Source of the DNA: Rhodospirillaceae bacterium
Lineage (GTDB): Bacteria > Pseudomonadota > Alphaproteobacteria > UBA6615
DNA length: 64,000 bases
Direction of reading: 5' to 3'
NCBI GenBank assembly: GCA_002713365.1
Contig: PASR01000011.1
Location: 229,856 to 293,855 of the forward strand
Below are positions 56,883 through 62,686 of this stretch, in pieces (positions within the stretch are counted from its first letter, which is position 1; the number at the start of each line of letters is the position of its first letter). The position numbers were made by a program, and so were the translations under genes. Below the pieces are notes generated by a model. It had not been told where the DNA came from. It was given only the letters and a program-made list of their open reading frames with translations, and made no database searches.

Positions 56883-59111
56883 TTATTTCTTTTTAATTTT
56901 TCTATATGATTTTTTAGTTTTTTTTCTTTGACGTTGAATGCTCTTATCATCATTGTTAATCTCAAAAATACTTGATGATTTTATTCCATTAGCTTCAATA
57001 ATACGTATCTCTACTTTCTCGCCTAACCTATGTTTTATCCCTAACTGTTTATTACTCAAGGTATACTTTTTAGAATCAAATACATAGCGATTACCAGTTA
57101 ATCTAGATGCGGGAACAAATCCCTCAGCGCCGATCTTATCAAGCCTAATAAACAAACCCGCCTTAGTAACACCAGAAATCACTCCCGTAAATAATTCACC
57201 TAAATACCTACTCAAAAACGCAGCTGTATAGCGGTCATTAGCGTTTCTCTCTGCATTCACTGCACGGCGATCAGTAGCTGAGATATGCTCTCCTATTTTA
57301 ATAAAGCTATCTATGGTATTTTCTGCAAGTTTCTCCTCGTCTTTACAAGTTTTTTCTAAGCCAAGTCCTCTAATAAGTGAACGGTGTACAAGTAAGTCAG
57401 CATAGCGTCTAATCGGAGATGTAAAATGAGCATATTTTCTTATGTTTAGCCCGAAATGACCAATATTTTGAGGGCTATATTCTGCCCTACTTTGCGAACG
57501 TAATATTAACTCGTTTATTAGCTGTGAATTTGGATGTTTTTTTAACTTCGTTAGAAGCGTGTTAAAATCAGAAGCTCTGTAGATTTTAGATTTTGGAAGG
57601 TTTGTTTTAAATTCAGCTAAAACTCTTCGTAAAACTTCAAGTTTTTCTTTATCTGGTTCGTCATGAATACGAAATATAGCTGGCTTGTTTAGCCTGGTTA
57701 ATTCAGTGCCAGCAGCAATGTTTGCTGTTATCATGAATTCTTCTATAAGACGGTGGCTATCTAAGCGCTTAATTGTATTAATCGACTTTACATTCCCCTG
57801 TCTCTCTAACACGATTTTTGTTTCTGGTAGATCAAGTTCTAGTGTTCCTCGGTTTTTTCTTTCATGTGAAAGACTTTTAAAGGCCATATATAGATTATCT
57901 ATATGCGATCTGGGGATTGGTGAGGGAGCTCCATTATAGATATTCTCGACTTGCTCATAGTTAAAGCGGCCAAATGATTTAATTATGGCACGTTGGAATT
58001 TATGACTTAGTAGAACACCGGTCTTAGTAATCCATAAATCTACGGCAAGACATGCACGCTCTTGGTTAGGTAATAGTGAGCAAAGATTGTTTGATAATGC
58101 AGGAGGTAACATTGGTACAACTCGATCTGGAAAATACACTGAGTTACCCCGTTTGTAGGCTTCACGGTCAAGGATACTATCTGGCCTTACAAACCAAGAA
58201 ACATCAGCTATCGCAACTATTAAATGCCAACCGTCAGGGTTGTCTGCGCTTTTATCGGGTTCGGCAAATACAGCGTCGTCGAAATCACGAGCATTGGTAC
58301 CATCAATAGTTATAAGTGGAACATCTCTATAATCTTTTCTAGCAATATTTTTAGGTTGTTCAAGTTTTTCTGTCGCAGATAATAATGGTTCTGAAAATTC
58401 AAATGGAATGTCAGATTCATGAATAGCAATCATACTTATTGCTCCAGAGGAAGATGCATCACATATAGGTTTGATTACTTTTGCTCGCGACATACCATAG
58501 TGTTTACCCGGTATTAAACCTACTTTTATTAACTCTCCATCCTTAGCATCACCTTTATGATTATCTGAGATAAATATATCTTTAGAGTTTCTCCGGTCTA
58601 TAGATTCTAAAAGCCCCCCTTCATTGGTTTCCCTGAAAATACCAATTATTTCTTTAGCATCTTTGCTCACATGACGCATTAGAATTGCTTTATAGGTTTG
58701 CTCTCCATTTGGTTGTAGGCGACACAAGATTCTATCACCCAAGCCCGGAGCTTTTACGTTTTTAGAACCCGTTTTTAATTCTATAAATGGATAAGGCTTT
58801 CCTTCGTCCCAATTAACAGGTTTCACAAGAGGGTAACCATCCTCGTCTATATCATAAACAACTAAAACAGTTACGGGGGGCAAACGATCACTTGGGCTCC
58901 ATTTTTGTTTATTACTTCGAGCTATTAACCCGTCATTCTCGAGTTCTATTAGCATTCTACGCAGCTTAGCTCGTTCGGCTCCTCTGACACCGAATGTCCT
59001 GGCTATATCTCGTCGAATACTTGGACCATCCTTTTCCCGTATATGGGCAATCAATTCGTCCCTACTGGGTAAAGAATCTAGACGAACTTTTCTTTTATCT
59101 TTTTTTGACAA
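56883..59111 (-). CDS. rnr: ribonuclease R
   Basis: RNB domain (TIDGTNARDFDDAVFAE...), S1 domain, basic tail; TTG start. Confidence 0.95.
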   Translation of the reverse strand: MSKKDKRKVRLDSLPSRDELIAHIREKDGPSIRRDIARTFGVRGAERAKLRRMLIELENDGLIARSNKQKWSPSDRLPPVTVLVVYDIDEDGYPLVKPVNWDEGKPYPFIELKTGSKNVKAPGLGDRILCRLQPNGEQTYKAILMRHVSKDAKEIIGIFRETNEGGLLESIDRRNSKDIFISDNHKGDAKDGELIKVGLIPGKHYGMSRAKVIKPICDASSSGAISMIAIHESDIPFEFSEPLLSATEKLEQPKNIARKDYRDVPLITIDGTNARDFDDAVFAEPDKSADNPDGWHLIVAIADVSWFVRPDSILDREAYKRGNSVYFPDRVVPMLPPALSNNLCSLLPNQERACLAVDLWITKTGVLLSHKFQRAIIKSFGRFNYEQVENIYNGAPSPIPRSHIDNLYMAFKSLSHERKNRGTLELDLPETKIVLERQGNVKSINTIKRLDSHRLIEEFMITANIAAGTELTRLNKPAIFRIHDEPDKEKLEVLRRVLAEFKTNLPKSKIYRASDFNTLLTKLKKHPNSQLINELILRSQSRAEYSPQNIGHFGLNIRKYAHFTSPIRRYADLLVHRSLIRGLGLEKTCKDEEKLAENTIDSFIKIGEHISATDRRAVNAERNANDRYTAAFLSRYLGELFTGVISGVTKAGLFIRLDKIGAEGFVPASRLTGNRYVFDSKKYTLSNKQLGIKHRLGEKVEIRIIEANGIKSSSIFEINNDDKSIQRQRKKTKKSYRKIKKK

Positions 59112-59118
59112 GTTTTTG

Positions 59119-61764
59119 CTAATTCACAACCGGAGGAGGTTCGGTTTTTTTCATTGCTGCTTTTTTTACCGTTTTCTTTTTGGATGTGGCTTTCTTTTTG
59201 GATGTGGCTTTCTTTTTGGATGTGCTGTTTTTACTCTTGGCTATTTTTTCATTTAAAAGAGCAATTGCATCTTCCAATGATAGATCTTTTATATCTCTAT
59301 GACTTGGAATAGTGGCGTTTGTTTTTCCATTTTTTACATATGCACCGTATCTTCCATCATAGATAGCTACGGGCGTTTTATCTTCTGGATGATTACCTAG
59401 TTCGCGAAGTATTTTAGCACCACGTCCCCTTGATTTTCCTTTCTCTGCTAGCAATGTAACTGCATGATTGAGACCAATTGTCAGTACATCACGTGGTTCT
59501 GGTAGAGATGCGTAGCTGCTTCCATGTTTTACATAGGGGCCAAATCGTCCTTGTCCTGCTTGGATAGTGATCCCATCTTCAGGGTGTAAACCGATATCTC
59601 GAGGTAGGTCAAGGAGTCCAAGAGCCAGCTCTAAATCGATTTCAGATGTTAAAATACCCTCAGGAATTGATGTTCGTTTTGGTTTAGTGGTTTTTTTACC
59701 GTTTTCTTCTGGTTCACCTAATTGGACATAAATACCATACGGCCCTTTGCGTATTGTCACGTCTTTTTGGGTGTTTGGATCGATACCTAAATTTATTGGG
59801 TTGTTTGAAAGATCGGCAGTTTTGTCATCACCACCGTCAACTGATAACTTGCGGGTAAATTTACATTCGGGATATTGTGAGCAGCCAACGAACGGGCCGT
59901 GTTTTCCAAGTCGCAAACCAAGTCTACCCTCATTACATGCTGGACAAATTCGTGCATCTGTCCCATCTTCACGAATAGGAAAAAAATGTGGTCCAAGTTC
60001 ATCATCCAGCGCATCCAGTACTGATCTAACGCGTAACTCCTTAGTTCCCTCTATTGCTGCTGAGAAATCATTCCAGAAGTCGCGGAGCACAGTTTTCCAG
60101 TCTAATCGACCACCGGAAATGTCATCAAGCCGTTCTTCCATTTGTGCTGTAAAGTCATATTCGACATATTGTCGAAAAAAACTCGATAAGAAGCTTACAA
60201 CTAGTCGACCTTGATCTTCGGGAATGAAACGCTTGCGATCAAGTTGAACGTATTTTCGTTCCTGTAGAACCTGAATTATTGATGCATAAGTGGATGGTCG
60301 GCCTATTCCTAGCTCTTCCATTGATTTAACTAGACTTGCTTCTGTATACCTTGGAGGCGGCTGGGTAAAATGCTGTTCTGGGCGTACTTCTCGAACAATG
60401 GACGATTCACCTTCATTTAGATGTGGAAGTCTTCGTTCATCCTCGCTATCGGCTTCTTCTTTTGATAGGTCATCGCGGTCTTCACGATATAACTTTAAAA
60501 AGCCTTCAAAGGCAATTGTTTGTCCATTGGCTCTTAAGGAAAGTTTTTTGTCTAAGGAGCCAATGTCTATGGTAACACGGTCTATTTGAGCTTCGGCCAT
60601 CTCTGACGCGAGGGTGCGACGCCAAATTAATTCATATAGACGGAAGAGATCATTATCTAACAGGCCTTTCAAACTTTGTGGACGGCGAAAAAAGTCAGTC
60701 GGACGGATCGCTTCATGTGCTTCTTGAGCATTTTTAGCCTTAGTGTGAAATACGCGTGGTTTTTCAGGAAGATATTCTTCGCCATAATCGGTGTCTATTA
60801 GGCTGCGGCTTCCTGAAATGGCATCTTGGCTAAGTGTAATACTGTCCGTTCGCATATATGTTATAAGACCAATAGTCTCACTATCAATTTCGATTCCTTC
60901 ATAAAGACGTTGTGCAACACGCATAGTTTGAGAAGTACTGAAACCAAGCTTACGTGCAGCCTCTTGCTGCAGTGTTGAAGTTGTAAATGGAGGTTGCGGG
61001 TTTCGCTTGGTACGTTTTTTCTCAACTTTAGTAATCTGAAAAGCAGCTGATTCAACTTCTCTTTTTGTATTAATGGCCATAGTTTCGTCTTTAATATCAA
61101 ACCTTTGCAGTTTTTGGCCGTTTTTTTCTACAAGTCTAGCATCAAAAGGAATACCTTGCTTACTATCTAGGCTAACCTCTATAGACCAGTATTCACGAGC
61201 CTTAAATATTTCTATTTCAGCTTCTCGCTCACAAATCAGACGTAGGGCAACAGATTGAACTCTACCCGCTGACCTGGATCCTGGAAGTTTACGCCATAAT
61301 ACTGGCGATAATTTGAATCCAACTAGATAGTCTAGGGCGCGCCGCGCCAGATATGCTTCAACTAGTTCATCATGTACATCACGAGGGTGATTAAAAGCCT
61401 CTTGTACTGCTCATTTGGTTATTTCATTAAATACAACACGCTTTACATCAATATTATTTAGTAAATCACGTTCATGAAGTAACTGTTCTATGTGCCAAGA
61501 AATTGCTTCACCTTCTAGGTCTGGATCAGTTGCTAAGTAAAGTATCTCAGCACCATTAAGAGCGTTTACTATTTCCTTAATTGGTTTCTCGGCACGTGAA
61601 TCAACTGACCAATCCATTTCAAAGTCTTCCTCGGGCCTGACCGATCCATCTTTCGGGGGTAGGTCACGGATATGTCCGTAAGAAGCAAGAACAATATAGT
61701 CTTTGCCAAGATACTTATTGATAGTCTTAGCCTTAGAAGGCGATTCTACGATAACTACGTTCAT
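59119..61764 (-). CDS. topA: DNA topoisomerase I, interrupted by an in-frame TGA at 61411-61413
   Basis: N-terminal Toprim ORF (61411-61764) and C-terminal ORF (59119-61080) share one reading frame; 61081-61410 translates in the same frame as conserved TopA ([76 protein letters not shown]...). Confidence 0.9.
59173..59225 (-). repeat. 18-bp tandem repeat (about 3 copies) in the topA 3' end, encoding SKKKAT-type Lys-rich repeats
   Basis: tttctttttggatgtggc repeated at 59173, 59191 and 59209 (last copy partial). Confidence 0.9.
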
Positions 61765-61834
61765 TGGGCATATAATCCGTAAATCTTATAAAAATTAGAG
61801 TAGAAGTACGATAAATTACTTTTTTAAATAATAA

Positions 61835-61957
61835 TTAAAGCATTTTCTTGCAGTTAAACCAGTTGCTAAGTTCAATCAACTTATATGTTTCAAAGAATAC
61901 TGCGGCGGTTACTTGGCACTGCAAAACGGTTACGTCAACTCCACTAATAGCAGTAAA
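61835..61957 (-). pseudogene. possible decayed dprA C-terminal remnant
   Basis: short open frame FTAISGVDVTVLQCQVTAAVFFETYKLIELSNWFNCKKML resembles the DprA C-terminal winged-helix pattern, at the plsY-(dprA)-topA position. Confidence 0.3.
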
Positions 61958-62008
61958 TTACTTTTATTGAACTATTTTCAGGACTTTTACTAGTAATCCG
62001 CTGTTATA

Positions 62009-62686
62009 TTAGGCTCTCAAATTAATTTTACTTTCCTTACCCAAAATAAGATTTTGTATATTTTTGATATGCCTAATCCAAACTAAGAAAGCAAGAATCA
62101 ACATTATTGAACCGATTTTAGGGCTACCAATAAAATATCCTAGGATAGGAGAAGTGGAAACTGATACTAGTGCTGCAAGAGAAGAAAACCGAGATATTAA
62201 AGCTACTATAAGCCAAATAATTAAGGATATAAATCCAGATAATAAGGAAAGACAAAGTAAAACGCCAAAAAAGCTTGCTACGCCTTTACCTCCACGAAAC
62301 TTTAACCAAATAGGAAATATATGCCCAAGAATAACGAATATGGATGTAAAAAAGGTAATATCAGGGCCCAAATACTCTTTTGAAAGCCAGACGACTATAA
62401 TAGCTTTACCAGAATCAAATATTAGGGTGAGTGCAGCTAGACCCCGTTTTCCACTCCGTAATACATTCGTTGCTCCTATATTACCTGAACCAATTTTACG
62501 TATGTCTTCTTTGCCAAAAAATTTAGTGATCAATAGCCCAAATGGTATTGATCCAAGGAGATAAGCGAATACTAAAGACGGACAAACTATATGCCAGCTA
62601 TAAATAATATTTTTCCAATCAGGTAAGTTCAAGATTGTTTGAAAAATACTCAGGTAATAATAGATTGGGCCAAAGCCGTTTTCCAT
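62009..62686 (-). CDS. plsY: glycerol-3-phosphate acyltransferase PlsY
   Basis: AYLLGSIPFGLLITK, IGSGNIGATNVLRSG, FRGGKGVASFFGV. Confidence 0.95.
   Translation of the reverse strand: MENGFGPIYYYLSIFQTILNLPDWKNIIYSWHIVCPSLVFAYLLGSIPFGLLITKFFGKEDIRKIGSGNIGATNVLRSGKRGLAALTLIFDSGKAIIVVWLSKEYLGPDITFFTSIFVILGHIFPIWLKFRGGKGVASFFGVLLCLSLLSGFISLIIWLIVALISRFSSLAALVSVSTSPILGYFIGSPKIGSIMLILAFLVWIRHIKNIQNLILGKESKINLRA

Follow-up and report, generated by a model that had tools for sequence, protein, structure and literature searches.

A lone in-frame TGA in the topA gene of a Rhodospirillaceae bacterium and its probable origin in a composite assembly

Introduction

A window of 64,000 nucleotides (positions 229856-293855 of contig C9, GenBank PASR01000011.1) from the assembly of a Rhodospirillaceae bacterium (GCA_002713365.1, here G000) contains the reading frame of topoisomerase I, topA, interrupted by an in-frame TGA. 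The locus thereby raises the question of whether the organism carries a broken topA, decodes UGA within it, makes its topoisomerase I in two parts, or possesses an ordinary gene that the deposited consensus misrepresents at one base. The evidence for and against each of these answers is set out below, drawing on the window, the remainder of the assembly and the genomes of related bacteria.

The topA reading frame and its surroundings

The topA frame extends over 881 codons and is interrupted in the consensus only once, by the TGA that forms codon 118 (Table 1). A preliminary description of the locus had presented it as a clean gene of about that length, open on both sides of one nonsense codon and with no other stop or frameshift, and that account is fully borne out. 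When the stop is read as X, the bacterial profile TIGR01051 (topA_bact) matches the read-through frame from residue 4 to residue 640, crossing the stop, with a score of 794 bits against a cut-off of 456; because homology runs on both sides without a frameshift, the reading frame is not a product of chance. Frameshifting, programmed or otherwise, is ruled out at topA by the use of the same frame on either side of the stop, and no frameshifted genes were found in the 124 kb of the contig that are covered by relatives. The encoded protein resembles other bacterial (type IA) TopA enzymes in its full-length frame, in the Toprim, core and C-terminal repeat regions that match across the stop, and in its 61-81% identity to relatives in the family; it differs from them in the TGA and in a leucine that replaces the invariant arginine of the Toprim DxDREGE motif.

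A second intact copy of topA, which would have set aside the problem posed in the preliminary description, was found neither in the genome searched with PF01131 (2.52 Mb in 19 contigs, rated 100% complete), where only one topA was matched, nor in viral contigs. Nor does anything point to a contig chimera here, since the genes that flank topA follow the two congeners (G001 and G002).

Table 1. Features of the topA locus and of other genes interrupted by a single stop. Plain coordinates refer to the window; those with a contig prefix refer to the assembly.
Feature	Position	Strand	Observation
topA reading frame, 881 codons, one interruption	59119-61764	-	Toprim, type IA core, zinc-finger and C-terminal repeat regions; TIGR01051 across stop; only PF01131 match in genome
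117-aa open frame up to the TGA	61411-61764	-	Toprim segment with DPDLEGE; ORF list
Codon 83, CTA (Leu)	61516-61518	-	Arg in all 23 relatives and in E. coli TopA (DxDREGE motif); alignment
In-frame TGA, codon 118	61411-61413	-	23 relatives have a sense residue, most often Gly; alignment
653-aa open frame from first ATG after the TGA	59119-61080	-	Would lack 110 conserved codons; ORF and continuous homology from codon 119
RNase R-like gene, downstream neighbour	56883-59111	-	Identified from its content and position; genes of relatives match
plsY-like membrane protein gene, upstream neighbour	62009-62686	-	Flanks follow congeners
gatA, TAA	C9:299337		Relatives have Glu; 8 kb from topA, about 5.5 kb past right end of window
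DMT-type transporter, TGA	C9:420391		Gly in congener
mtnA-like gene, TAA	C9:340062
UrtB/LivH-type permease, TGA	C6:160912
nnr, TGA	C5:46246
ileS, TAG	C11:11530		Gene at L203:11134-13956 (G000:C11)
M24 peptidase, TAG	C12:87487

The history of the locus presents some features of its own. The TopA protein groups with those of two other genera of the family (g3 and g10, with 100/100 support) and apart from those of its congeners, being 79% identical to TopA of other genera and 66% identical to that of the two congeners, whereas the genes on either side stand nearer to those of the congeners; the closest relative of ileS, in turn, lies in genus g2. The topA and plsY-like genes are separated by 244 bases (61765-62008), at which place a g3 relative has a segment of about 1.1 kb (perhaps dprA) that is absent both here and in the congeners. 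The grouping of TopA, set against the affinities of the flanking genes and ileS, suggests a possible older exchange or replacement of topA within the family, which has no bearing on the stop.

The interrupted codon in relatives

The stop falls at a variable site directly after the conserved FNEITK motif. All 23 aligned relatives display a sense residue and no gap at codon 118, which is Gly in 13 of them, Arg in four, Ser in two, and Asn, Thr, Asp or Lys in one each. The genes of the two congeners are intact and have Asn or Thr there ('TAG inside' flags raised for both were found to be their terminal stops), and no internal stop was seen in topA of the other family members, at 61-81% identity. 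The earlier suggestion that the position is commonly serine, and that TCA had become TGA, does not fit this distribution; as glycine is the commonest residue among the relatives, the simplest single change to TGA would have started from a glycine codon. Elsewhere in the 881 codons, the protein departs from columns conserved in the 23 relatives at only five places, one of which is the leucine at codon 83, a second odd residue within Toprim. So small a number of departures indicates that normal constraint acted on topA up to a very recent time.

Lone stops and ambiguous bases across the assembly

Examination of 1.64 Mb of the assembly, in which proteins were compared with those of congeners and codon usage was scanned, with candidate stops chosen partly by eye, identified seven genes besides topA that are intact except for a single in-frame stop, with TGA, TAA and TAG all represented (Table 1). 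In these genes the matches to NCBIfam profiles continue past the stop, weakly so for the DMT-type transporter, where the evidence comes mainly from the homologue in the congener; structural homologues in the PDB also align across the stop in ileS, mtnA, nnr and the M24 peptidase, and none of 18 full-length relatives has a stop in ileS. Taken together, the eight stops imply approximately one wrong base per 8 kb (about 1.2e-4 per base). The same two approaches revealed no clear case in 0.62 Mb of the two congeners, a modest contrast given that about three would be expected there at the rate of this assembly.

The same 1.64 Mb contain 482 N calls, nearly all of them isolated single bases and grouped in blocks (for example, at C9:137-182 kb and C6:1-150 kb), while five genomes of the family (G001, G002, G010, G006 and G020), covered over 0.76 Mb drawn mostly from the two congeners, have none. 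Of 109 Ns in codons that could be aligned to relatives, 75 occupy the third position (p 7e-14), a pattern that real polymorphism leaves behind when alleles are merged without being resolved; the record is therefore a consensus in which mixed alleles were combined. At some N-bearing codons, one of the possible bases would create a stop. Between topA and gatA there are three Ns. One N stands 2.6 kb from the topA stop, and the first base beyond the window (C9:293856) is an N; the 110 kb that precede those three Ns, topA included, have none. The ambiguous sites, resembling real polymorphism as they do, are evidence of mixing and not of error at the topA base itself.

For five of the stops (those in topA, gatA, the DMT-type transporter, nnr and the permease) the former residue is clear, that of the permease being the one usual in LivH/UrtB proteins, and each of the five is what a change from G to T in the coding strand would produce. 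Such changes make up 22% of those that create stops under uniform change with the codon use of this genome, so that five of five would arise by chance with p of about 5e-4; with the permease residue taken from its protein family at large and three of the eight cases lacking a clear former residue, a G-to-T bias among the stops is suggested only as a hint. Radical missense changes at conserved columns, a test with little power at about 1e-4 per base, exhibit no G-to-T excess (14 of 41 here and 14 of 50 in congener G001). Genome-wide G-to-T damage or a mutator state was rejected: mutM and mutY are both present, missense changes have the same spectrum here as in G001, and the hint of G-to-T is confined to the nonsense changes.

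Alternatives to an error in the consensus

The alternative that survives best, although we regard it as unlikely, is that the nonsense mutation truly exists in the sequenced strain, and that topA is a very young pseudogene whose loss is balanced by changes in gyrase or by another relaxing enzyme. Mutants of E. coli in topA can be viable when they carry gyrase suppressors, the TGA here lies in the only topA of the genome, and the Leu that replaces Arg83, otherwise invariant in Toprim, might point to relaxed constraint. That the 881 codons contain no more than five further departures at columns conserved in the 23 relatives, with neither a frameshift nor a second stop, argues against this reading, as does the presence of lone stops in gatA and ileS, given that a cell is unlikely to tolerate all three together.

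A considerably less probable alternative is that UGA is decoded, whether by readthrough, by insertion of selenocysteine or by its reassignment to glycine, and that full-length TopA is thereby produced. The genome does encode selenocysteine machinery, with tRNA-Sec (C2:66203-66295, L262) and SelB (C2:71418-73298, L269) located on one contig, and the four TGA cases sit where relatives have Gly or mostly Gly. At topA, however, no SECIS-like hairpin follows the UGA, where the predicted fold is no more stable than that of shuffled sequence (z from -0.2 to 1.4), and none of the 23 relatives has a cysteine at codon 118, so that selenocysteine was rejected for this site. Recurrence of Gly at the TGA sites is a likeness to the UGA-to-Gly code of Absconditabacteria and Gracilibacteria (NCBI table 25), but glycine simply possesses a codon one base away from TGA; the bacterium further differs from those lineages in that TGA terminates 126 of 786 long ORFs, release factor 2 is intact, and none of the tRNAs found is a tRNA-Gly(UCA). 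UGA is thus a normal stop in this genome. Among the 42 tRNAs found, tRNA-Trp has the anticodon CCA and tRNA-Gly has UCC and GCC, which, together with release factor 2 and the use of TGA as a stop, led to rejection of the reading of UGA as Gly or Trp (tables 4 and 25). An altered release factor 2 and a suppressor tRNA had both been raised in the preliminary description, and neither was encountered: no anticodon UUA, CUA or UCA other than that of tRNA-Sec occurs among the tRNAs whose anticodon was read (a set to which one tRNA cut by a contig end, at C16:1-71, does not belong), and nonsense suppression of UAA or UAG was set aside on those grounds. Decoding of UGA, by tRNA-Sec or otherwise, could not in any case rescue the TAA of gatA or the TAG of ileS, and no decoding route covering the three stop codons was found.

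It is more doubtful still that the two open frames, of 117 and 653 residues, represent a functional two-part topoisomerase I in which a Toprim fragment assembles with a second polypeptide started downstream. That reading does not hold, since no ATG, GTG or TTG start occurs until 111 codons past the stop, and the 110 codons that would be lost are conserved both among relatives and in TopA of E. coli, much as the preliminary description had already reasoned; furthermore, codon use remains that of coding sequence throughout the gap after the TGA, and such a split was seen in no relative examined. Equally improbable is that stops of all three kinds are real in topA, gatA and ileS, with full-length proteins made by widespread readthrough or with such alleles maintained in populations. 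Were the stops real, cells would be living with three essential genes broken or would read through stop codons in general, which would be a major surprise.

The most probable origin of the stop

The explanation that we consider probable, with good confidence, is that the TGA is a wrong or minor-allele base in a composite consensus, and that the organism's own topA is ordinary, intact and single-copy. We infer that the topA stop shares a common origin with the other lone stops: truncation of topA, gatA and ileS in one cell is not credible and no decoding route serves their three stop codons, and the common cause therefore most likely lies in the assembly, where ambiguous bases accompany lone stops in essential genes that are unrelated to one another. 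The base might have entered the consensus as an error of sequencing, of amplification or derived from damage, or might represent a rare defective allele. From the options originally listed (error, polymorphism, readthrough or suppression, and a split gene), error or a mixed allele is best favoured by the assembly-wide lone stops and Ns, and the others are disfavoured. The pattern resembles lone nonsense artefacts in composite assemblies of the metagenome or single-cell type, in that the changes are of single bases, without frameshift, scattered over genes that include essential ones and accompanied by ambiguous bases elsewhere, a likeness judged from the consensus sequence alone; a literature search on base-level errors in such assemblies yielded no usable paper.

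The locus offers a caution, in that a lone in-frame stop in an essential gene is striking when seen in one window, while a scan of the assembly for further lone stops and Ns provides an unremarkable explanation for it. Annotation pipelines will probably misreport the topA, gatA and ileS of this genome as pseudogenes or split genes, and the TGA in topA most likely does not represent new biology.
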